DNA of 42,514 nt, from contig WTCE01000129.1 of NCBI GenBank assembly GCA_013138735.1, forward strand, positions 1-42,514. The letters are read 5' to 3'. Under the pieces are notes generated by a model, which was not told the origin of the DNA, did no database searches, and worked only from the letters and a program-made list of their open reading frames with translations. The position numbers and the translations under genes were made by a program. This document shows, piece by piece, positions 896 through 11,985 of this stretch; the stretch's first letter is position 1, and each line of letters starts with the position of its first letter. Origin of the DNA: Crocinitomix sp. (GTDB lineage Bacteria > Bacteroidota > Bacteroidia > Flavobacteriales_D > Crocinitomicaceae).

Positions 896-1759
896 ATGAT
901 TGACTTGACCCAAATACTATCCCATCTACCATCCGAAAGGATTGCTGATTTAGAGCATATCACTCAAAAAATACTGGACACGCACCGAGTTGACATTATA
1001 GTTTTGTTTGGCTCTTTTGCTAGAGGTGATTTTAAAACCGAACGTGGCAAAGAGCAAGGAAAGAAAAGTGATTTTGATATTCTGATTGTTACCGAAGACG
1101 GAACACGTAAAAAACAAGTGGTTGCAAAATTGCGTGGAGCGTTTAAGGATATGGAAATTGTAGTTCAAACGTTGGTTGTCCCTATCGGTGTTGTAAATAA
1201 AGCCTTGGAAGAAAATCGTTATTTCTATTCGGATATTAAAAAGGAAGGAATTGAATTGTTTAATTCTGGTCGTTATGATTTTGCTTCGTTCAAGGGATTA
1301 TCTCCTACTCGAAGAAGAGAGATAGCAGAAGCGGATTTTGAAGAATGGTTTACGGGTGCAAAACGCTTTTTTGAGAATTTTAAATTCAATGCTGAAAAAG
1401 AATATTTACTAGAGGCTTCATTCATGCTGCAACAATCCATTGAAATGGGGTACACTGCGATTGAAATGGTATTTAGCCATTATAATCCGCATGAACATAG
1501 CTTGTTTGTATTGCGTGATCGTTGTGTTCGTTTTCATAAAAGTCTAAAAGGTGTTTTTCATTATGATAATGAGGAGCATACTAAACTGTTTGACCAATTA
1601 AACTATGCGTACATTGGAGGTCGTTACCGTAACGAAAAGGAATTTCCTGTGGATATGGATAAGATTGAGTTTTGGAAGCGGGAGACGGAAGCCTTTTTGA
1701 AATTGACGGAGGAGATCTGTTTGGAGCGGATTGAGGGGTTTAAATCTTTGGAAGGGTAG
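896..1759 (+). CDS. Fused nucleotidyltransferase (MNT)-HEPN domain protein
   Basis: The N-terminal third shows the minimal nucleotidyltransferase signature: GSFARG at residues 39-44, then SDFD at 58-61, which gives the metal-binding aspartates 59 and 61. The C-terminal half (about 140-285) is an all-helical HEPN-type domain. R209 to H214 (or R207 to H214) could be its R-x4-6-H ribonuclease motif, but its position in the fold is uncertain. In two-gene MNT/HEPN toxin-antitoxin pairs the MNT part modifies and silences the HEPN RNase. Here both are on one chain, a known Bacteroidota arrangement. The last 40 codons and the 3' flank are duplicated about 10.1 kb downstream. The gene appears intact and stands alone, with a candidate promoter just upstream. 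The domain calls are firm; the toxin-antitoxin role is inferred. Confidence 0.8.
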   Translation: MIDLTQILSHLPSERIADLEHITQKILDTHRVDIIVLFGSFARGDFKTERGKEQGKKSDFDILIVTEDGTRKKQVVAKLRGAFKDMEIVVQTLVVPIGVVNKALEENRYFYSDIKKEGIELFNSGRYDFASFKGLSPTRRREIAEADFEEWFTGAKRFFENFKFNAEKEYLLEASFMLQQSIEMGYTAIEMVFSHYNPHEHSLFVLRDRCVRFHKSLKGVFHYDNEEHTKLFDQLNYAYIGGRYRNEKEFPVDMDKIEFWKRETEAFLKLTEEICLERIEGFKSLEG

Positions 1760-1885
1760 TTTTCTTTTTTATTTCGGGTATTATTTTCTTGTGCTTGGGT
1801 GAGTTATCTGCTATTTCGGCAGATTTTATTTTACCGTATAATTTTTAGTCTTAATTTTCTTTAAGAACAGGTATTTATACTGTTT
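1635..1885 (+). repeat. Direct repeat, left copy (3' end of MNT-HEPN gene plus flank)
   Basis: This segment covers the last 40 codons of the MNT-HEPN gene and about 125 bp after its stop. It is repeated in the same orientation at 11739-11985. By hand count 82 of 90 bases match between 1641-1730 and 11746-11835. The flank still matches at 1865-1883 versus 11965-11983 (18 of 19), with a net shift of 5 bp. The two copies bracket the ABC-3C, HEPN and SEC-C genes. Confidence 0.85.
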
Positions 1886-2027: not shown

Positions 2028-3248
2028 ATGACTGAAAAAAACATCTTGGATCAACACACCGCTGGTCCACAATCCGTTGGGTACGACTATCAGTTTTATT
2101 ACTTCATGTTTTTGTCTTTAACGCTTACACAAGGTCAAAAGATAGGGTTTGAAGTTAAAGATGATATTCATATTGATAGACAGGATGGTATTACACTGCT
2201 ATTTCAGGCAAAACACACTATTCAAAAAGATTCTAAAGGAAATATTCAAAATTTGACCACGAGCGATATCGATTTATGGAAAACACTTAATAATTGGTCA
2301 GCCTTTATAAAGTCAGATAAAAATTTTCTTGACACACATGAGTTTATATTAGTCACAAATAAGAATGTGAATAATAACTCATTTATTGATGCGTTGGAAA
2401 TTTTTATAGTAGATAACGACATTGACAAAATTCTTGCTACTCTAAATGAAATTAAAAAGGACACCTCTGATTCATCTTTAAAATCATACTTAAAAAGTGT
2501 TATTTCATTAGGCAAAAGAAAATTACGAACTTTTCTAGAAAAACTTAAACTTGAAACCGATACTAATTCTATTGAAATTAAGATTAAGAACAAAATCCAC
2601 GAAATAGTTCGACAAGATAACTTAGTCGAACCAGTTTTTGAAAAATTATCCGCTAACTTGCTTCTAGCGAAATATACAGATATTAAGACTAGAAATAAGT
2701 TCGAAATATCTTATGATGATTTTAATTCAAAGTTTGGCAAATGTTTTGAGGTCGCTTTTCAAGAAAAACCTCTCCCAAAACGAAACTTACCTGTAACACT
2801 TCCAGAAGATCCAGAAGATCAAATTTTCATTAAGCAGCTAATTGATGTCGGAGAAATAGAACAGGGCTCAAAAGATATTATAACATATACCACACAAATG
2901 CTAAAGTTCTTAAACGACTTTTCCTTCTGGTCAGATGAAAATTTTCTTTTACCCACTGAGATTGGTGAGTTCAATAAAAATAGTGTAACAGTTTGGCACA
3001 ATGAATTCAAGTCGAAATATAGGACGATAACAAATAAAATCAGAGGAGGATCTACTCTAGCTAATTTAGAAGATGAAATCAAGATTTTAGCCACAAGCTT
3101 AATAGATGAATTAAGAAAACAAAATTTATCGATTGAGGGATTCTATTCTTTAGGAATAAGTCATAGTAATGGACATTTTTATGCTCTATCAGATAAACTA
3201 GACATAGGATGGCATTTCGACTGGAAAAATAAATATGGAAAGGCATGA
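2028..3248 (+). CDS. ABC-3C system nuclease component, Cap4/DUF4297-like
   Basis: This is the first gene of a four-gene operon. The N-terminal 90 residues look like the dsDNA endonuclease domain of Cap4/DUF4297 proteins: an AGPQSVGYDYQFYYF start, then E42, D45-D46 and Q60-A-K62. This is a PD-(D/E)XK variant in which Q replaces the second acidic residue. The rest (about 100-406) is helical and probably carries the C-terminal portion that links to the ATPase in ABC-3C systems. Its TGA overlaps the ATG of the next gene (ATGA), so translation is coupled. By family logic this is the effector that cuts DNA once the ATPase senses infection. The order of genes and the DUF3732 partner support the system call; nuclease activity is inferred. 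Confidence 0.7.
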   Translation: MTEKNILDQHTAGPQSVGYDYQFYYFMFLSLTLTQGQKIGFEVKDDIHIDRQDGITLLFQAKHTIQKDSKGNIQNLTTSDIDLWKTLNNWSAFIKSDKNFLDTHEFILVTNKNVNNNSFIDALEIFIVDNDIDKILATLNEIKKDTSDSSLKSYLKSVISLGKRKLRTFLEKLKLETDTNSIEIKIKNKIHEIVRQDNLVEPVFEKLSANLLLAKYTDIKTRNKFEISYDDFNSKFGKCFEVAFQEKPLPKRNLPVTLPEDPEDQIFIKQLIDVGEIEQGSKDIITYTTQMLKFLNDFSFWSDENFLLPTEIGEFNKNSVTVWHNEFKSKYRTITNKIRGGSTLANLEDEIKILATSLIDELRKQNLSIEGFYSLGISHSNGHFYALSDKLDIGWHFDWKNKYGKA

Positions 3249-3697
3249 AAGAGGTATATTATGTATATAATAACGAAGCTATTTCAAGCTGTATTTTTTT
3301 ATCAATATTAGATGATGTGGAAAATATAGATATTCCAAGATCATGCTTAATACTTCCTTTTCTACTTGATGACAGAACGGTGAATTATTTGAATAATAAT
3401 ATAGACATTGATTTTAATCTTGAGGAAATGATCAGTGATAGTCCACGTCTGTTTACATCATTTAACAAAAGGTATTTATCGCTTTTACCAGTCACTATAA
3501 ATTCTCTAATTCTTTTAAGAAAAAGTGCTCAGATATTGATTGGAACACATATTTCAAAGTTAGACACTGACGTTTTTGATAGTGCGGATTTAGGGCAAAG
3601 ATTCAGAAAGATAGAAACCATTATTCCTAGATTTTTGATGTTGATTGATCCTTATTCGACGCAAGAACTCTATAAAATATTAAAAGTACAATTATGA
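3245..3697 (+). CDS. ABC-3C system middle component
   Basis: A 150-residue protein between the nuclease-like and ATPase genes, overlapping both by 4 bp (ATGA junctions). Its size, its position and a mixed helical sequence with the motif LPFLLDDRTVNYLN (residues 37-50) match the small middle-component families defined for ABC-three-component conflict systems. In these systems the middle component is thought to bridge sensor and effector. No catalytic motif, signal peptide or membrane segment is visible. The assignment rests mainly on context with the DUF3732 ATPase. Confidence 0.65.
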   Translation: MKEVYYVYNNEAISSCIFLSILDDVENIDIPRSCLILPFLLDDRTVNYLNNNIDIDFNLEEMISDSPRLFTSFNKRYLSLLPVTINSLILLRKSAQILIGTHISKLDTDVFDSADLGQRFRKIETIIPRFLMLIDPYSTQELYKILKVQL

Positions 3698-5550
3698 AAT
3701 TTATACTAAATGAGATTAGACTATGGTTTAAGGATGATGACTTAGAACCTAAAAGCTATGAATTTCTTCCCAATAAGATAAACGTGATTACAGGGGATTC
3801 AACCAAAGGAAAAACTAGTTTTTGGAATATTATGGATTATTGCCTTTTATCAGGAAAAGTAACGATCCCAACTGAAATTATCGAAAAAGTCTTATGGTTT
3901 GGAATAAATTTCAAAATAGGCGAAAGAGAAATTAGTATTGTTAGGAAAACACCTAGTCATGGTTCAGTTTCTTCAGATGTATTTTTTGGGGAAGGTAAAC
4001 TTCCAATCACTCCAATAGCGAATAGCGAAGTTTCTGTTATAAAATCCACGTTAGATAGAGCTTTCGGTATCAATGATAAACTCAGGTTTCCATTTGGTAA
4101 AGAAGCGGGAAAAACAACATTTAATATATCTTACAGACATTTTTTACTTTTTAATTCTCTTACTCAAACAATAATATTTACTCCTGAAACTTATTTTGAT
4201 ACCACATTTTATGGAAAAGAGGATTATGATAAAGCGTTAACCCATATTTACAATCTTGTAATTGGGGTAAACGATATGGAAAAAATTAAAGCACTCGAAA
4301 GACTAGAAGAAATTAACGAGGAGCTTTTGAAAATAAAAAGAAAAGAGGATCGAAATAAAAGTTCCCTCAATAATTTTAACAAATCAATTTTTGCCTTGAT
4401 TGATAAAAGCAAACAAAACAATTTCATAGATTATGACAGGGGATTTAATGACATTGAAGAGGCTGTTCTTGCCATTGAACAAGTGTTGGAGAATGCAAAA
4501 CAAGTAGCGAACAATACTGAAGTTTTTAAAGAACTTGATCAATTACAAGACAAGAGAAACGCCATTAGAGCGCAAATTAGTTCTTTAAATTCGTACAAAA
4601 AAGAATTTGACAGTTACACGAAAAATTTGAATAAATCAGCAGATAGTTTGCAGCCAATCAATTTTTTAAAAGAAAAATTATCAGATCAATTAGTAGATTC
4701 TTATGAAACCAAAACATTCATTGATTCTTTGGAATCTTCATTGAAAAGTATTAAGTCTAGTATTTCAAAAAAACAGAATAAACCCTTAAAAGTTGATGGA
4801 GATGTAAGAGAATTAACAAAGGAAAAAAAGGAAATTGAGGCCAAAATTGACAGAATTAATCTTCTAAAAAGAAATTATGACCTAGAGGCTAATAAATTTA
4901 TGGCTTTTGGCGAGATAAAAGTAATGTTCAATCAGACATTAACTAGAAAAACCATCAAACCAATTGACACAGTAAAACTTAATAGGCTCAATGAAGAAAA
5001 AGAACGATTAGAAAAAGTACCTTCTAATACCACTCAGATCAAAAACTCAATGAATAGGTTTCTGAATGAAAGTATTCAGCGAAATTTTGATCAGCTAGAA
5101 TCATTAGCTAAATACAAGAATAGCAGTGTAGAATTTAACAGTGAAAAAATGCTTTTGCAGCTATTTCCCGAAGGACAAATATTTCCTTTAGATAATGTCG
5201 GGAGTGCATCAAATTACATGTTTATGCACTTGTGCTTTTATTTGGGACTACATGAACATATTATTAACATTGAACAAGAACACGTACCACAATTTTTATT
5301 TATAGACCAACCTAGTACACCTTACTACGAAGGAAAAAATGATGATAAAACTAAATTAATTGATGCTTTTACGCTATTAAATTCGTTCGTAAAATATATC
5401 GTCGAAGACAAGAAGAATGATTTTCAAATTTTTATGGTGGAACATGCTCCAAAGGAGTATTGGGTTGATAACAACTTATCATTCTTTCATACAGTTGCCG
5501 AATTTACTGAAGGTAATGGATTAATACCTAACGATATTTTTAATGATTGA
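3694..5550 (+). CDS. DUF3732 ABC-type ATPase of the ABC-3C system
   Basis: A 618-residue SMC/Rad50-like ATPase. Walker A is GDSTKGKTS at residues 34-42 (K40, T41). A long coiled coil runs from about 200 to 470. The signature-like segment LDNVGSASNYM precedes Walker B FLFIDQP, with D538 and Q539, and VEHAPKEYW near the C-terminus takes the place of the H-loop. The opening, with an IRLWFKDD motif and then INVITGDS, is the pattern of the DUF3732 family, and the length is normal. DUF3732 proteins are the ATPase subunits of ABC-3C conflict systems, where they probably sense altered nucleic acid or protein states. It overlaps the previous gene by 4 bp and the next by 8 bp. Confidence 0.85.
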   Translation: MKFILNEIRLWFKDDDLEPKSYEFLPNKINVITGDSTKGKTSFWNIMDYCLLSGKVTIPTEIIEKVLWFGINFKIGEREISIVRKTPSHGSVSSDVFFGEGKLPITPIANSEVSVIKSTLDRAFGINDKLRFPFGKEAGKTTFNISYRHFLLFNSLTQTIIFTPETYFDTTFYGKEDYDKALTHIYNLVIGVNDMEKIKALERLEEINEELLKIKRKEDRNKSSLNNFNKSIFALIDKSKQNNFIDYDRGFNDIEEAVLAIEQVLENAKQVANNTEVFKELDQLQDKRNAIRAQISSLNSYKKEFDSYTKNLNKSADSLQPINFLKEKLSDQLVDSYETKTFIDSLESSLKSIKSSISKKQNKPLKVDGDVRELTKEKKEIEAKIDRINLLKRNYDLEANKFMAFGEIKVMFNQTLTRKTIKPIDTVKLNRLNEEKERLEKVPSNTTQIKNSMNRFLNESIQRNFDQLESLAKYKNSSVEFNSEKMLLQLFPEGQIFPLDNVGSASNYMFMHLCFYLGLHEHIINIEQEHVPQFLFIDQPSTPYYEGKNDDKTKLIDAFTLLNSFVKYIVEDKKNDFQIFMVEHAPKEYWVDNNLSFFHTVAEFTEGNGLIPNDIFND

Positions 5551-6592
5551 TTTCAATAAAAAATTATTTATTGGAGATATCAATAAGCTGATCGTTCATT
5601 TTGTGGGTAACAAAAATGATGGGGACGGTGTTAAATTTTCAGAGAATTTCACTGATTTGATTAATGTTGAAGATTATTTTAAACAACTAATTAATAAGAA
5701 TTTTATTTCCGACGAACTACATCAATTTTACTTTAATCCTCGTATCCAATTGAATCCAATGTTCCAGTTCATAAGTTCAATATTTGAAAGAGGAGAATTA
5801 TTCCTTGAAGCCTCTAATCATATAGCGAGATACCTCTACGATAAAAGTGTTCATCCGCAAATAAAAAAAGGCGAATTATGTATTTTTTACATTAAAGATT
5901 GTAGAATTGATGATGAAATTCTCGATTGTGTTGGAATTTTTAAATCTGAAAATAAAGATGTTATTCTAAAGATTGATAAAACCGAAAGCGATCTGGTTCT
6001 TGAGAGCAGTACTGGGATGAGCACAACCAAATTAGACAAAGGTTGCTTAATTTTTAATACTGAAAAAGAAAATGGATTTTTGGTATCTGTTGTCGATAAA
6101 ACTAATAAAAATGGAGAGGCACAATATTGGAAAGACAACTTCTTAGGAGTTCAACCCATAGAGAACGAATACCATAAAACAAATGAATTTTTAGGAATTA
6201 CCAAGAAATTTGTAACTCAAGAATTATCTACCAACGAAGAAGTGTCTAAGGCTGACCAGATTAATATTCTAAACAAGTCGGTGGAGTACTTTAAGAATAA
6301 TGAGACTTTTGACAACGGTGATTTTGAAGAACAAGTCTTTAATAATAATGATGTGTTAAATTCTTTCAAAAAGTTCAATAAGTCATTTCAAGAAGAAAAT
6401 AATGTTCAAATACCTAGTGAGTTTAGCATATCTAAACAAGCCGTAAAAAAGCAATCAAGAGCATTCAAAAAAGTTCTTAAATTGGATAAGAATTTTCACA
6501 TCTATATTCACGGTGATCGGGATTTGATAGAGCAAGGTACTGAAACAGACGGAAGGAAGTTTTACAAAATATATTATGATAGTGAACAGTAG
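5543..6592 (+). CDS. Nucleoid-associated protein, NdpA/YejK (NA37) family, fourth gene of the ABC-3C operon
   Basis: The start ATG lies inside the last codons of the ATPase gene (8-bp overlap), so it is translationally coupled to the ABC-3C genes. Its 349 residues match the Bacteroidota form of NA37 proteins: MIDF start, an HFVGNKNDGDG segment, then around residues 90-135 LEASNHIARYLYDKSVHP, GELCIFYIKDC and GIFKSENKDVIL. E. coli YejK is a soluble nucleoid-associated protein. Here the tight coupling suggests that it recognises or coats DNA for the nuclease/ATPase complex, or protects host DNA. That role is inference. The family call is based on remembered sequence patterns and not on a search. 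Confidence 0.7.
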   Translation: MIDFNKKLFIGDINKLIVHFVGNKNDGDGVKFSENFTDLINVEDYFKQLINKNFISDELHQFYFNPRIQLNPMFQFISSIFERGELFLEASNHIARYLYDKSVHPQIKKGELCIFYIKDCRIDDEILDCVGIFKSENKDVILKIDKTESDLVLESSTGMSTTKLDKGCLIFNTEKENGFLVSVVDKTNKNGEAQYWKDNFLGVQPIENEYHKTNEFLGITKKFVTQELSTNEEVSKADQINILNKSVEYFKNNETFDNGDFEEQVFNNNDVLNSFKKFNKSFQEENNVQIPSEFSISKQAVKKQSRAFKKVLKLDKNFHIYIHGDRDLIEQGTETDGRKFYKIYYDSEQ

Positions 6593-6599
6593 GATTATC

Positions 6600-7484
6600 C
6601 TACAAATTTCTCTTATCCAAATGTGATAAATATTCAATAAAATCAAGCAGATAAACGGCTCTAACCGCATTTTTTTTTGTCCCATATTCGAGTGAATGAC
6701 CATGCACAATTAAATGTCGATTGAAAGACTGTTTTCTTTTGATATGGTCTTTAAGTGAAGCATCTTTAGAATTCCGAGTTATTTCATTCTTTTTGATACC
6801 TAATTGGTCCTTTATAAGAGAAGAAATGTTCTTTTCCATATCTTCTAATTTATCATACAATTTAGGTTTACCATTGCATCTATCAAAAAATCCAAATCCC
6901 CATTTGGTGTTGCACATTGAGTCTGCCATGCTATAAGCCATAATAATCGAAGCGCGATAAAATCCGTTTTCAATAAGTTGTTTGATTTCATTAAAAACAG
7001 ATTTGTTTTCGGGAAAAGATTCTGAACACCTTTTCAAAGCGTTTTTCACGTTTTTCTCTGAATTTTCCATAAGCATAACTTCAAATTCATCTAATGAACT
7101 TTGACTTAACAATTCCTCTAATTCCGACATTGGTATACGACTAAAGACATTTGGGCTAACATACCAACCCTTCTCACTTGCCTTTTGAAGTTTAGCTATA
7201 ACGGGGTGTGATATTGATTCTGTAAAACTCTTAAATGCTGCAAATCCATTTTTTACCACATCAGCAATGAATCGCAGGCTTTCAGAGTCAACATTCACTC
7301 TTGAAAGACTATCCTCTTCCATTTTCTTTATACGCACCACATCTTCATCAGAGTATCCATGATTCGGATTTTTCTTAATTTCTTCTAGCGCAACAATCAA
7401 ATAACCTGCTGTGTCTTCATACCGTTCTGGTATAGTCATTTTGATTGTTTTCATTCCATTATTTTCTTCATCCTGCATATTCAT
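6600..7484 (-). CDS. HEPN-type protein with C-terminal RHLIVH motif
   Basis: A 294-residue protein convergent to the ABC-3C operon, its stop only 8 bp from the stop of the NA37 gene. The C-terminal third is helical and contains NRHLIVHG. R256 and H261 form the R-x4-H pair typical of HEPN ribonucleases, and HG after a hydrophobic stretch is common in Abi-like HEPN domains. The N-terminal two thirds are acidic and helical with no motif I recognise. No signal peptide is present. A second ATG ten codons downstream (residue 11) is an alternative start. Being within a defence cluster, it may be an abortive-infection RNase, but this is inference. Confidence 0.55.
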   Translation of the reverse strand: MNMQDEENNGMKTIKMTIPERYEDTAGYLIVALEEIKKNPNHGYSDEDVVRIKKMEEDSLSRVNVDSESLRFIADVVKNGFAAFKSFTESISHPVIAKLQKASEKGWYVSPNVFSRIPMSELEELLSQSSLDEFEVMLMENSEKNVKNALKRCSESFPENKSVFNEIKQLIENGFYRASIIMAYSMADSMCNTKWGFGFFDRCNGKPKLYDKLEDMEKNISSLIKDQLGIKKNEITRNSKDASLKDHIKRKQSFNRHLIVHGHSLEYGTKKNAVRAVYLLDFIEYLSHLDKRNL

Positions 7485-7904
7485 TGGATTTTAAATATAT
7501 AGCAATCTTAATAACAAACTACGCAATATTTTTGCGTAGCGCTAATAAAGTTTAATCTTTTGGTTTTTATGATTATGAAGCTTTAGGTATTTCTACTGTT
7601 GTAAATTTCAAATAAAGTCTTTTCTTTTGCTTACTTAATGTGAAGCCCAAATCTTTGTGATTATCACTTTTTAAAATGCCTAAATATCGCTGTTAAAAAT
7701 TGAGGATCGTAAAATCAATGAGGAATTTCAGTGGGTAATATTCCTTGAGTAAAAGGCATTCAACCCCAGGGCAAGCCCTGGACCCAATAAGCGGAATCGG
7801 GGCAAGCCCCGAGGTATTAAACCAAAAAAAGAATAAAAATCGAGTGAAATAGTTGTAATCATTTGAAGAACTAAAAGTATAACAGTCAAATAAACTAAAA
7901 TCAA
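7485..7904. other. Intergenic region between divergent genes
   Basis: 420 bp separating the minus-strand HEPN gene from the plus-strand SEC-C gene. It must hold two divergent promoters, although none is convincing by eye. The only clear structure is the pair of GC-rich palindromes at 7764-7816. Confidence 0.5.
7764..7816. repeat. Twin GC-rich palindromes, REP-like
   Basis: Two short perfect hairpins with identical AA loops sit 15 bp apart: CCAGGGC-AA-GCCCTGG (7766-7781) and TCGGGGC-AA-GCCCCGA (7797-7812). They are strikingly GC-rich against the AT-rich surroundings, and the shared GGGC-AA-GCCC core suggests copies of one repetitive extragenic palindrome family. No T-run follows, so a terminator is unlikely. 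Confidence 0.6.
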
Positions 7905-10900
7905 ATGAGTAAAAAGATTGGTCGAAATGAAAAGTGTCCTTGCGGTAGTGGTATTAAATACAAAAAATGCTGTTTAGGTTCGGGTCGCACTTTTAGTGCT
8001 AATGATAATGCGACACAACCTCCTTCTATTTTTAGTCAGTACAATTCTATTGACCTTATAAAAAAGTTTGCTGCTCTCACTTTGATCACTGAAAATCACG
8101 GCAAAAATATAAGGTTGGAAGAGCTGACAAAAAAGTCTATTCTTAATTTAAACACCGAGCCAACAATCATACCACATGCGGAATTTGAAACATATTTAAG
8201 CAACCACTATACTTCCCATCATTTAGAAGATATTTCTATAAACCTATTCACTGATCTAATCACTTTTTATGGTGGTGACTACGTCATATTCCCCGGCATA
8301 ACAGATGCAGGAAGTTATGTATTATCCAATTTGTTAACTGCTGTCTTCAACTGGCCTGATTCCGGCATTCCTGATCAATTCAAGAGTAATTGCATGCATG
8401 CTTCTCAATTAATATTGAGTCTATCAAATGCTATTGCAACAAGATTAGGCTACAACAGGTATTTGGAGGGAGACGTGACGGAACAAGTTATAAGCATACC
8501 TTCATATACCCAATTAAACATGTTGCAAAGAGCACTGACCTTTAGTCAAGAAGAAATTCAAGGGCTGCTCAAGGAAAATAGTATTGCACCAGAAGCGCTA
8601 GAGATATTTCTCCTCGATATAAGTGACTCAGATTTGCAAAATGAGCGCATGCAGGAAAGTCCTTTATTGGTGAAGCCAATACTATTGCATAATGGAGAAT
8701 ATATCATTGTGTCGCCTGCTACACTCAGCTATGCATTAACAGAATTTATTACATCTCAAGCCAATCAGTTTGGTTATAAGGATCAATTAGGTAATGCGTA
8801 TCATAGTATGATTTGGAACAATACTCAGTTGCATCTTAGTCAACTTGGATTTAGCGAAATAGAAATCTCATCAATAACTAAAATTAGCGATACTCAAATA
8901 AGAGAGAAAATCTATCGCTTTGATGATGATAAACTGGCTTATGTCCAGTATTTAACTGGCAGTGGAGCAGGTGATCAAGAAAGAAAGCAACACGTTATCA
9001 ATGAAACATTAGCCGCTACCGAATTTGCAGATCATAAGTTTATGGATATTGTGCTAGTCTCTTCTATGGGTAAAGAGGTGTTCTTTATGTTTAGTCGAAC
9101 TAATCAGTCTAACAGTGTTGGAATGCCGATCCATGACTTTGACACGCTAATTAAATTAAAAGATCATTCAGCCTTCGATTTATGGAAGTTTAGTATCGCT
9201 CGTGAAGAACAAATCCCTGACAGCCGTATGTTCGGGGCTTCATTCTTAGATGTTTTTAAGGTTTATAAGGAGAATGATGATTCTTTTTACCTATCAGATG
9301 ATCATGTGAAAACGATACTCCATATAGAGCCTGGTTATGCCACCGATTTATATCAGGAAGCAAAATTGTTATCGGACGAGCATTCGGCACTGCGCCTATA
9401 TAATGATCGGTTAATCAATGTACCCATTATAAGGAAGGAAGAATCCTCACCCATTTACTATTCCCCCTCTGACTTGGGATTAGAACTCCAATTATTGGTT
9501 GAAGGATTCTTTCAATCTTTATGGGTTTCGCCCTTAAAAGCAACAAGTGTAATTCCTGATACTGCAAGAGGATTATACTATGAAATGACTGACGCAATTG
9601 CTTATTGGTTGTGGCAATGTCAGGATCTAATCAAAGAAGATTTGGCATTATTAGGTAACACTCCTTTAACAGTAACATTTGATCTTAATCCAGAGGAATC
9701 ATTTGACCCTTTTGAAAGAAATTTTGAAAGAGATCCAGTATTTTCGGATCATTTTAATGTGACTGTAACAGATAATACACTCAATATTTCTATTCCCAGC
9801 TCCATCATTCCTTATCTTTATGGTGCAGATAATGAAGGGGAACGTTTCTTACTCAAACACATATTAATTGGCTTCAATCAACTATTATCGACACAGCAAC
9901 AAGCGGTCATTGAAAATGAGAGGATAAATACTATAATAGAATCAGCAGCACCATTAGGTGTCAAAAAGAAAGTATTTATATTAGATACCAGTGATAATCT
10001 ATTGTTAGATCCATCCAACCTAAATAAGTATAGGTATATCCAAAGCTATGATGTAAATGTAGTACTAAACAATATTGTTCCAGACTTAGGGGGATTATGC
10101 CCAGCAGTCGGTGATGTAATAGCAAAAGAAGATAAAACAGGACTTACAATGAATATCGTCTTGAGAGTTTTATTGCCAACACTAAGCAGTACGATTAGCC
10201 AATATCAACATGAATCACTTTTAAAAAGATTAATCGGATTGAATGAAAGTTTAATCCAAAAAAGAGAAGATTTAAGATTAAAAACTCCTACACGAATCGC
10301 TTGTTTTGTTTCAGTTGAAGAGCAAACGGCTGATCTCCATAATAGTCTTTCTAAATTGAATCAGACCACAATAGCAGTGAGATGTCTAATTGAGCATTTA
10401 GCAGCGGAGCCAAGCAAAGGAAATGAAATAGTAAGCACCACTGCCATTGATGAACTGATTGCTATCATGAGTCAAATCATTACTTGGGGTTCACTTGGCG
10501 ATCAGATAAATCATGATCTTTTTGACGTTAAATTATCAGTGTTACCTTCAGGCAGAATTGGTACCGAAAAAACCCTTCAAAATGCGATTTTTGATCCTTA
10601 CTATGCTTCAAAATCGAAAGAGAATATGCAAAATGCTGTTGACACTTTTGAACAGTGTTTTCCGCAGCATCTTGAGTTAGATAGTAAGAATCCTCCTGAA
10701 TATCTTGAAAATGCATTCTTATCAGAGTTTGGTTTAACATTTACACGAATTTGTGAACTAATCAATGACCTTGGAATTATTGCTTTTCAACAACCCACAT
10801 CATTCGCTGCAATCGTAAAAAGTGAACTATTTATAGAAATAAACAAGTTTGATCATACCTATACAAATGAAGAATTTAATAATGGATTAGAATATTTATG

Positions 10901-11642
10901 CTTATTCGAGAGAGGAGAAGTTAAAAATATACCAGACGGTTTTGATAGTATTGACATTTCTCCTTGGCGCTTCAATCGGCGCCTGTCATTATTAAGAAAA
11001 CCATTAGTCGCAAGAAATAACATAGATGTACCTGAAGATCCAATTATTTATTGGGGTTTCAGGCAATTATTAACAAGTAGAAGATACCTCTTTGATCAAT
11101 GTATGACAAACAGACTGAGAGTAATTGAAAAGGGAGCTGTTCAAAAAGCACTTGGAAAATTGAGTCAAATAAATGGTAAAGATTTAGTAGAGTCAGTTCT
11201 ACAAGAATTAGAAAACGATCAGTTGATTATTGATTCTGAAGTCTTAATAAATACTAAATCTGAACTTAAAGCAGATTCAGACAAGGGTGATGTTGATGTT
11301 CTAATTATTGATAAATCATCCGAGCTAATATATAGCCTTGAATGTAAAAGCATGGCTCCAAGCAGAAATATCAAAGAAATGGTTGAGGAAGTAAATAAAC
11401 TGTTTGGGAGCGATTCAAAAAAAGGATGGATTGATAAGCATGTTGGTCGTGATGAATGGCTGAAAGAGAATTTAGATCAGCTAGGAACAAAATATAAATT
11501 GGATTTGTCCGAGTATAGTGTGAAATCTTTCTTCGTTACGCGAGAGGATATGCTTACAAGATATTTAACAACACGAGAACTAAAAATTCCTTTCGTGTCA
11601 TTGCCTAATTTAAAAGAAAAGGGAATGGGGGCTTTTGATTAG
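7905..11642 (+). CDS. Very large SEC-C zinc-motif protein with C-terminal PD-(D/E)XK nuclease-like domain
   Basis: A 1245-residue protein. The first 25 residues are a SEC-C zinc-binding motif (RNEKCPCGSG then KYKKCC, with C11, C13, C22 and C23). The last 120 residues contain GDVDVLII (D1129, D1131) followed by LECKS (E1146, K1148). This is the D...E-x-K core of a restriction-endonuclease-like fold. The 1100 residues between have no motif I can name and no membrane segments, but look globular. No ATPase or helicase signature was found, so it may act alone. SEC-C motifs recur in proteins of phage-defence islands, and a nuclease effector role is inferred from that and from the neighbours. The start is fixed by the SEC-C motif at the extreme N-terminus. 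Confidence 0.65.
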   Translation: MSKKIGRNEKCPCGSGIKYKKCCLGSGRTFSANDNATQPPSIFSQYNSIDLIKKFAALTLITENHGKNIRLEELTKKSILNLNTEPTIIPHAEFETYLSNHYTSHHLEDISINLFTDLITFYGGDYVIFPGITDAGSYVLSNLLTAVFNWPDSGIPDQFKSNCMHASQLILSLSNAIATRLGYNRYLEGDVTEQVISIPSYTQLNMLQRALTFSQEEIQGLLKENSIAPEALEIFLLDISDSDLQNERMQESPLLVKPILLHNGEYIIVSPATLSYALTEFITSQANQFGYKDQLGNAYHSMIWNNTQLHLSQLGFSEIEISSITKISDTQIREKIYRFDDDKLAYVQYLTGSGAGDQERKQHVINETLAATEFADHKFMDIVLVSSMGKEVFFMFSRTNQSNSVGMPIHDFDTLIKLKDHSAFDLWKFSIAREEQIPDSRMFGASFLDVFKVYKENDDSFYLSDDHVKTILHIEPGYATDLYQEAKLLSDEHSALRLYNDRLINVPIIRKEESSPIYYSPSDLGLELQLLVEGFFQSLWVSPLKATSVIPDTARGLYYEMTDAIAYWLWQCQDLIKEDLALLGNTPLTVTFDLNPEESFDPFERNFERDPVFSDHFNVTVTDNTLNISIPSSIIPYLYGADNEGERFLLKHILIGFNQLLSTQQQAVIENERINTIIESAAPLGVKKKVFILDTSDNLLLDPSNLNKYRYIQSYDVNVVLNNIVPDLGGLCPAVGDVIAKEDKTGLTMNIVLRVLLPTLSSTISQYQHESLLKRLIGLNESLIQKREDLRLKTPTRIACFVSVEEQTADLHNSLSKLNQTTIAVRCLIEHLAAEPSKGNEIVSTTAIDELIAIMSQIITWGSLGDQINHDLFDVKLSVLPSGRIGTEKTLQNAIFDPYYASKSKENMQNAVDTFEQCFPQHLELDSKNPPEYLENAFLSEFGLTFTRICELINDLGIIAFQQPTSFAAIVKSELFIEINKFDHTYTNEEFNNGLEYLCLFERGEVKNIPDGFDSIDISPWRFNRRLSLLRKPLVARNNIDVPEDPIIYWGFRQLLTSRRYLFDQCMTNRLRVIEKGAVQKALGKLSQINGKDLVESVLQELENDQLIIDSEVLINTKSELKADSDKGDVDVLIIDKSSELIYSLECKSMAPSRNIKEMVEEVNKLFGSDSKKGWIDKHVGRDEWLKENLDQLGTKYKLDLSEYSVKSFFVTREDMLTRYLTTRELKIPFVSLPNLKEKGMGAFD

Positions 11643-11702: not shown

Positions 11703-11906
11703 ATGATTTTTGCTAAAACAAGAAACCTTCACTTCAATAAAAAGGAATTTCCTGTGGATATGGATAAGATTGAGTTTTGGAAGAAGGAGACGGATGCGTT
11801 TTTGAAATTGACTGAAAAGATTTGTTTGGAGCGGATTGATAGGTTAGGTTTTGGAAATAAAATTTCCTTTTTATTCGGTATTTCTTTCTCGAATTATAAT
11901 GCATAA
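11703..11906 (+). pseudogene. Duplicated C-terminal fragment of the MNT-HEPN protein
   Basis: The open frame here is not a complete gene. From about 11737 it encodes KKEFPVDMDKIEFWKKET and onward to CLERID, a diverged copy of the C-terminus of the MNT-HEPN protein at 896-1759. The first 12 codons are unrelated and the catalytic and HEPN core are missing. It is the right copy of the direct repeat that brackets the defence genes. It may be the remnant of a second paralogue that was mostly deleted, or a duplication created by insertion of the block between. Confidence 0.75.
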
Positions 11907-11985
11907 CGGTTTATTGGAGACATTTTTATTCGTTTCAGCATTTTAAGTTTTTTTTATTTAAAAAAACAGGTGTTTATACTGTTGT
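11739..11985 (+). repeat. Direct repeat, right copy
   Basis: Partner of 1635-1885: the last codons of the MNT-HEPN gene plus downstream flank, including the 19-bp stretch at 11965-11983 that differs by one base from 1865-1883. The similarity continues beyond the stop codon of the original gene, so it is a DNA duplication and not only protein homology. Confidence 0.85.

Follow-up and report, generated by a model that had tools for sequence, protein, structure and literature searches.

ATP-binding cassette (ABC) three-component (ABC-3C) systems were reportedly defined by Krishnan et al. in 2020 and consist of three overlapping genes that code for an effector with a C-terminal domain, a middle component and an ABC ATPase. 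In the type II Lamassu/DdmABC systems the gene order is A-C-B, the effector is a Cap4 nuclease and the ATPase belongs to the DUF3732 family and carries an IDQ Walker B motif. These features, with the middle component assigned by weak matches, are found at positions 2028-6592 of a stretch of 42,514 nucleotides from Crocinitomix sp. (Bacteroidota; contig WTCE01000129.1), which is called the window throughout; in contrast to the described systems, a fourth gene coding for a protein of the NA37 (YejK/NdpA) family is coupled to lmuB. On balance, we read this locus as a type II Lamassu (ABC-3C) system of a subtype that has NA37 as its fourth subunit, and we would expect it to act against phages.

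According to one review, Lamassu likely detects aberrant DNA via LmuB (PMC10586767), and preprints covered by a second review describe the release of LmuA and its assembly into an active homotetramer (PMC12409362). Wadjet (JetABCD) likewise combines an SMC-like complex, a nuclease and a fourth subunit (PMC10586767), but its protein families are others and the LmuB of the window gave only weak JetC matches (best E 0.0018). Proteins of the NA37 family associate with the nucleoid; ParB is an interaction partner of NdpA and NdpA2, and for YejK contacts with gyrase and topoisomerase IV have been reported (PMC9927451). ABC-3C systems have exactly three components whereas the NA37 clade has four, and since NA37 is the fourth gene in 38 of the 39 rows of that clade, the locus is a variant of Lamassu/ABC-3C. 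In the literature searched, no paper joined Lamassu, DUF3732 or ABC-3C with NA37, YejK or NdpA; the primary Lamassu and ABC-3C papers lay outside that search, so that a prior mention of NA37 in them is possible.

Composition of the four-gene unit

The first-pass annotation, made by a model from the sequence alone, had described three overlapping genes followed by a fourth that overlaps the ATPase gene, and these overlaps were confirmed (Table 1). The ABC-3C identity that it had proposed holds as well, the more specific name being type II Lamassu (LmuA-LmuC-LmuB). In NCBIfam, genes 1, 2 and 4 had no match and gene 3 had matches far below the cut-off only; the four proteins were assigned as follows.

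Gene 1 matched the PADLOC LmuA model (E 1.2e-47), which also matched 8/8 LmuA tested across the NA37-linked clade. In Pfam, CTD7 stayed under its cut-off (22.7 vs 27.6 bits), DUF7277 was at chance level and there was no DUF4297 match. The best solved match of the AlphaFold model of LmuA (mean pLDDT 90, pTM 0.60) was 9hr5, a DNA-bound tetramer of the LmuA nuclease of Salmonella Lamassu (E 1.1e-18, probability 1.00, TM 0.65 by query, 406 columns), followed by the Lamassu LmuA 9nxx; Hachiman, Cap4 (6vm5) and a DUF4297-HerA complex (8zir) were matched more weakly. The sequence alone reached a PDB LmuA over residues 15-157 (5e-9). The nuclease, described at first pass as Cap4/DUF4297-like, is of the Cap4 type. 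The residues singled out there, E42, D46, Q60 and K62, were invariant in all 39 aligned LmuA (34 NA37-linked loci including the window, the Pedobacter locus L062 and four loci from outside the clade), and Q22 was likewise invariant.

The product of gene 2 was matched weakly by Pfam MC3 (4.6e-4, below the cut-off) and by PADLOC LmuC (3.8e-5). Its size and its place between lmuA and lmuB, where it overlaps the ATPase gene, fit a middle component, and homologues occupy the same place in other loci.

Gene 3 was assigned to DUF3732, as predicted, by a Pfam match over the cut-off (PF12532, 8.4e-36) and to LmuB by PADLOC (2.5e-80), whose model matched 7/7 LmuB tested across the clade. Nearly full-length matches were obtained to the DUF3732 chains of Lamassu complexes in the PDB (9ny5_D, 5.9e-32; 9hqu_A, 7.1e-28). 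The Walker B motif reads IDQPS, with Q replacing E, a change reported as general for LmuB (PMC10586767); the DQ pattern was present in 38/38 linked and 51/59 unlinked LmuB. The CPxC zinc-hook pattern, present in 8 of the 59 unlinked LmuB, was absent from the LmuB of the window and from all 38 linked LmuB, a difference from type II Lamassu/DdmABC. A Walker A pattern was set aside as too narrow, as it matched only 20/38 linked LmuB.

Gene 4 codes for an NA37 protein, as the first-pass annotation had it: Pfam NA37 (PF04245) matched residues 17-335 at 6e-32 with 111.7 bits, well over the cut-off of 24.6. The AlphaFold model (mean pLDDT 85, pTM 0.78) matched E. coli YejK (9be2; E 7.2e-9, probability 1.00, TM 0.48/0.50, root mean square deviation 8.8 over 352 columns) and no other structure with E <= 0.001. 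A sequence search against the PDB did not find YejK, which agrees with the very long branch that YejK forms among the NA37s. The Pfam match, the YejK fold and the core residues, kept in linked NA37s, are shared with E. coli YejK and Pseudomonas NdpA and NdpA2; the NA37 of the window differs from these in its place in a defence operon, in belonging to a clade of its own and in six sites typical of lmuB-linked NA37s only (G29, F32, L49, P72, F76 and C120; one residue in at least 85% of linked and in less than 30% of free NA37s). These six sites are candidate interface positions. The isoelectric point (pI) of the protein is 5.3, compared with medians of 5.4 for 34 linked and 5.0 for 58 free NA37s and with 4.9 for YejK.

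Downstream, the unit is bounded by a short inverted repeat at the NA37 stop codon and by a convergent gene; a terminator-like hairpin also lies upstream of lmuA. Both elements are weak evidence because the count of such hairpins in the window (4) is near expectation (2.0 +/- 1.6). A promoter scan of the window returned 23 candidates vs 25.2 in shuffles, hence no enrichment. In the genome of the window, the single DUF3732 match and the single NA37 match both lie at this locus.

Table 1. Coordinates of the four-gene unit and of the features around it in the window
Feature	Position	Strand	Remarks
lmuA-like gene (LmuA)	2028-3248	+	406 aa; Cap4-type nuclease and Lamassu C-terminal domain
lmuC-like middle component (LmuC)	3245-3697	+	150 aa; 4 bp overlap with lmuA
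lmuB (LmuB), DUF3732 SMC-like ATPase	3694-5550	+	618 aa; 4 bp overlap with lmuC
NA37 (YejK/NdpA family) gene, fourth of the unit	5543-6592	+	349 aa; 8 bp overlap with lmuB
Short inverted repeat at NA37 stop codon, possible terminator of the unit	6589-6603	+	terminator-like scan
Terminator-like hairpin upstream of lmuA	1806-1824	+	terminator-like scan
Nucleotidyltransferase (Polbeta)-HEPN fusion protein	896-1759	+	Pfam, both domains over cut-off
Protein convergent to NA37	6600-7484	-	294 aa; weak PADLOC PD-T4-6 and PDC-S35 matches only
Upx-like protein, distant relative of anti-phage Upx	7905-11642	+	1245 aa; N-terminal SEC-C motif

Distribution and descent of the lmuB-NA37 linkage

In general, the linkage between NA37 and DUF3732 is rare. 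In a draw of 395 Bacteroidota genomes, DUF3732 was found in 15 and NA37 lay directly behind it in two of these (the genome of the window and G351), while in G170 NA37 was located elsewhere in the genome; conversely, only 2 of the 88 NA37 matches, found in 82 genomes, were linked to DUF3732. Among 378 Pseudomonadota genomes, 14 DUF3732 matches were obtained in 13 genomes, four of which have NA37, adjoining only in Snodgrassella. As Snodgrassella was the centre genome, picked for having the unit, this linkage of 1/14 counts as 0/13. NA37 as a general follower of DUF3732 was therefore rejected.

The neighbourhood survey advised at first pass found NA37 directly behind DUF3732 in further genomes, all within one lineage of LmuB; given also the NA37 match of gene 4, neither outcome named at first pass as refuting was seen. 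When 84,980 species genomes were scanned with an LmuB alignment and the best 80 of 109 relatives taken, 78 loci were obtained; 36 of them had NA37 directly behind lmuB, which is not a frequency because of that selection. Viral contigs gave four lmuB loci, one with NA37 directly behind. In a tree of 96 LmuB rows, a single clade of 39 rows (SH-aLRT 100) contained 38 with NA37 directly downstream, compared with 0 of the 57 rows outside it, and the presence of NA37 required 2 changes on the tree vs a mean of 30 in 500 label shuffles. This is a quick tree, with L117 and L107 on long branches; it omits L035 and L037, which share contigs with L072 and L083, and L025, whose reading frame is split, and the LmuB set includes the near-identical rows L045/L063, L072/L073 and L049/L061. 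The clade is mostly made of Bacteroidota, and the intact unit is also found in a Sulfuricurvum bin (L060, Campylobacterota), in Snodgrassella alvi (L107, Neisseriaceae) and in the contig L117 (IMGVR_UViG_3300030294_000939). The latter is filed as viral, carries a complete LmuABC-NA37 unit and forms the longest branch of the clade.

In 36 of 37 linked loci, NA37 starts between -44 and +9 bp from the lmuB stop; the start was taken as the first possible codon and large overlaps with lmuB may be overestimated. In the 37th (L059), NA37 is frame-broken and its first piece starts 5 bp downstream of lmuB. The genes flanking the unit vary between loci: over 33 loci, upstream neighbours belonged to 26 families, the largest with 5 members, and downstream neighbours to 22 families, the largest with 6, which defines the unit as four genes. 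This comparison was made where both flanks were long enough, and three loci without a full lmuA were skipped. NA37 as a chance neighbour was rejected, as it is retained in 38/39 rows while the flanks are scrambled.

The linked NA37s themselves (34 tested) formed one clade, with a support of 100 against 27 free NA37s including YejK and of 99 against 58 free NA37s without YejK. In these trees, of 61 and 92 NA37s, the linked rows L035, L053, L059, L063 and L067 were left out; 8 of the 29 free NA37s L121-L149 were used, 9/60 other loci had no profile match and L161 was low-scoring. Since the linked NA37s are a single clade, repeated recruitment was rejected, and together with the 38/39 LmuB rows this means that one recruitment and one loss, in Pedobacter, suffice. 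One subtype of Lamassu therefore has NA37 as a standard subunit. The first-pass annotation had known of no ABC-3C subtype with this property; one is now seen, and it corresponds to one LmuB clade. Of the four closest plasmid NA37s, two were examined and neither adjoins DUF3732, and scanning viral contigs for NA37 by itself gave no relative.

Possible roles of NA37

For the core of the mechanism that we propose, we rely on homologous Lamassu complexes of known structure. The ATPase LmuB, SMC/Rad50-like and with glutamine in the place of the Walker B glutamate, would sense aberrant DNA such as the ends or hairpins of a replicating phage or plasmid. Before sensing, LmuB and LmuC would keep LmuA inactive; upon sensing, LmuA would be released and form a tetramer whose Cap4 nuclease cuts DNA indiscriminately. 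NA37, presumably produced together with LmuB by way of the overlapping frames, would dock on the LmuABC complex or on the DNA of the complex, report the status of this DNA through its YejK-type fold and set the timing of LmuA release. With moderate confidence, we thus regard NA37 as a regulatory subunit that tunes the activation of the nuclease, probably within an LmuABC-NA37 complex. Such a docking and tuning role is favoured because NdpA, NdpA2 and YejK act on nucleoprotein complexes: the contacts described for the family are with gyrase, topoisomerase IV, ParB and H-NS-type proteins (PMC9927451, PMC8565334), and NdpA2, which showed no DNA binding of its own, makes MvaT bind a promoter more tightly (PMC8565334). 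Action on nucleoprotein complexes, not lone DNA binding, appears as the common thread of the known members.

Several observations weigh against this reading. Firstly, the 57 LmuB outside the clade manage without NA37, and so does one member of the clade, L062 of Pedobacter hiemivivus: its LmuABC looks intact, and no NA37 remnant was found nearby and no NA37 match anywhere in the genome. NA37 is therefore not strictly needed. Secondly, NA37 is interrupted or shortened in four linked loci (L053, L059, L063 and L067) and the LmuA reading frame is short in four (L046, L052, L053 and L063); these broken frames may reflect contig ends or sequencing errors. Thirdly, over 18 close loci the pairwise distances of LmuA, LmuB and the middle component were well correlated (LmuA-LmuB 0.88, LmuA-middle component 0.87, LmuB-middle component 0.82), and those involving NA37 less so (0.68 with LmuB, 0.65 with LmuA and 0.57 with the middle component), as for a peripheral or exchangeable subunit. 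Over the whole set the correlations were high for every pair and thus uninformative.

A brake or a shield for host DNA is the next reading to consider, and we hold it to be unlikely; at first pass, a shield had been proposed beside a sensor. NA37 would either cap LmuB on the host nucleoid or protect host DNA from LmuA, and LmuABC without NA37 would then be toxic. The family is nucleoid-associated (PMC9927451), the LmuA effector is a DNase thought to cut indiscriminately (PMC12409362) and the gene overlap would keep brake and system in step. However, L062 retains LmuABC in a genome that has no NA37, and a shield would be expected to be widespread among Lamassu systems with a nuclease, whereas NA37 is confined to one clade. 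The acidity of NA37s, that of the window included, also speaks somewhat against a shield and makes simple coating of DNA unlikely, and the paralogue NdpA2 alone gave no DNA shift in an electrophoretic mobility shift assay (PMC8565334).

It is improbable that NA37 is a bait or guard, which would mimic an NA37 target of phage or host so that interference by a phage with nucleoid proteins triggers the system, or would titrate phage NA37 homologues. NA37 proteins, mostly annotated as hypothetical, are indeed encoded by marine flavobacterial phages (Freya and Danklef of Polaribacter, Gundel of Tenacibaculum) and are 27-31% identical to the NA37 of the window over 97% of its length (19/23 records, many of them near-identical), but the linked NA37s form their own clade and the only phage NA37 placed in the tree (that of Freya, L023) falls among free cellular ones. 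We give equally little credence to NA37 being only a transcriptional co-factor for the operon or island, in the manner of NdpA2 with TprA and MvaT on PAPI-1. Although this NdpA2, encoded by a mobile element, functions in gene control (PMC8565334), NA37 comes last in the unit and overlaps or abuts lmuB, an arrangement commoner for a co-assembled subunit, and in the comparison of flanks no DNA-binding regulator was conserved alongside it. Finally, it is very improbable that NA37 is an independent gene and ancestral neighbour of lmuB kept by linkage, as the single origin of the linkage and the abundance of free NA37s (82/395 genomes of the Bacteroidota draw) might suggest, given that linkage decays fast on both scrambled flanks, yet NA37 stays in 38/39 rows, with LmuB down to ~31% identity to that of the window and through transfer between phyla.

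Neighbouring genes and other defence genes linked to NA37

A 106-nt direct repeat (91%) occurs at 1635-1740 and 11740-11845, ~10.1 kb apart, and a 44-nt direct repeat (77%) at 1841-1884 and 11940-11983 lies in nearly the same register. The 3' end of the gene for the nucleotidyltransferase-HEPN fusion, together with the sequence that follows it, thus recurs past the defence genes. Copies of a gene end therefore lie on either side of the stretch 2028-11642, with the Lamassu-NA37 unit, the gene convergent to it and the Upx-like gene, a layout that an insertion or a duplication could have left. The Upx-like protein was matched by NCBIfam at 2.1e-56, its 190.8 bits falling far short of the cut-off of 1900, and by PADLOC at 3.2e-46. 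The nucleotidyltransferase-HEPN fusion is reminiscent of the MntA-HepT toxin-antitoxin pairs, and the C-terminal RHLIVHG of the 294-aa protein, judged by eye, resembles a HEPN R-x4-H motif.

Further defence genes were seen immediately behind NA37 in linked loci. A Hypoth_Ymh/PD-Lambda-3_B-like gene lies 5-6 bp behind it in L044, L047 (where it is split), L048, L049, L051 and L061, and a PRTase-CE gene 0 bp behind it in L075 (scanned) and in L077 and L086 (by clustering). A TOTE primase-helicase (L045), a Schlafen AlbA_2 protein (L074) and a putAbiC protein (L056) are also encoded 0 to 6 bp behind NA37 or overlapping it. It seems that additional defence genes tend to be joined on where NA37 ends.

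Free NA37s occur in a second type of tight operon (L155, 5200-9102; L165, 3938-9593; L153, 3315-9681). In L155 and L165, a 301-aa gene, a 378/390-aa gene and NA37 are followed by a PD-Lambda-3_B-like or TmtA-like gene; the one in L155 is a near relative of the PD-Lambda-3_B-like gene found behind linked NA37s. In L153, NA37 lies between a gene for an 895-aa protein, which resembles a fusion of the 301-aa and 378-aa genes, and the PRTase and reverse transcriptase (RT) genes of retron III-A type. The first 98 residues of the 895-aa protein matched a PADLOC endonuclease effector model (2.9e-14). The 301-aa genes had no Pfam match, and the one scanned with PADLOC had no match there. The 378-aa family was matched in 6/395 genomes, two of them marginally, and NA37 adjoins in two. 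On the basis of this second operon type and of the PD-Lambda-3_B-like and PRTase genes that recur behind NA37, we tentatively raise a wider reading that we consider possible though doubtful: in bacterial immunity, NA37 may serve DNase effectors as a portable subunit for control or sensing, of which one lineage entered Lamassu and others a second, unrelated defence operon made of a nuclease-like gene, a 378-aa partner and NA37.

PADLOC gave no NA37 match in the window and only marginal matches in at most 3/34 linked NA37s; an annotation that names three genes 'Lamassu' would miss a subunit here. The results suggest that NA37 has a function within an immune system, and the poorly understood NdpA/YejK family thereby gains a concrete functional setting. 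Reviews leave unsettled how Lamassu tells the host chromosome apart from invading DNA (PMC10586767, PMC12409362), and a protein of a nucleoid family that has stayed the fourth gene through deep divergence and in several phyla provides a genetic handle on this question. If NA37 is indeed portable between defence systems, part of a family now classed as nucleoid-associated would serve in immune signalling and distinguish host from invader DNA.

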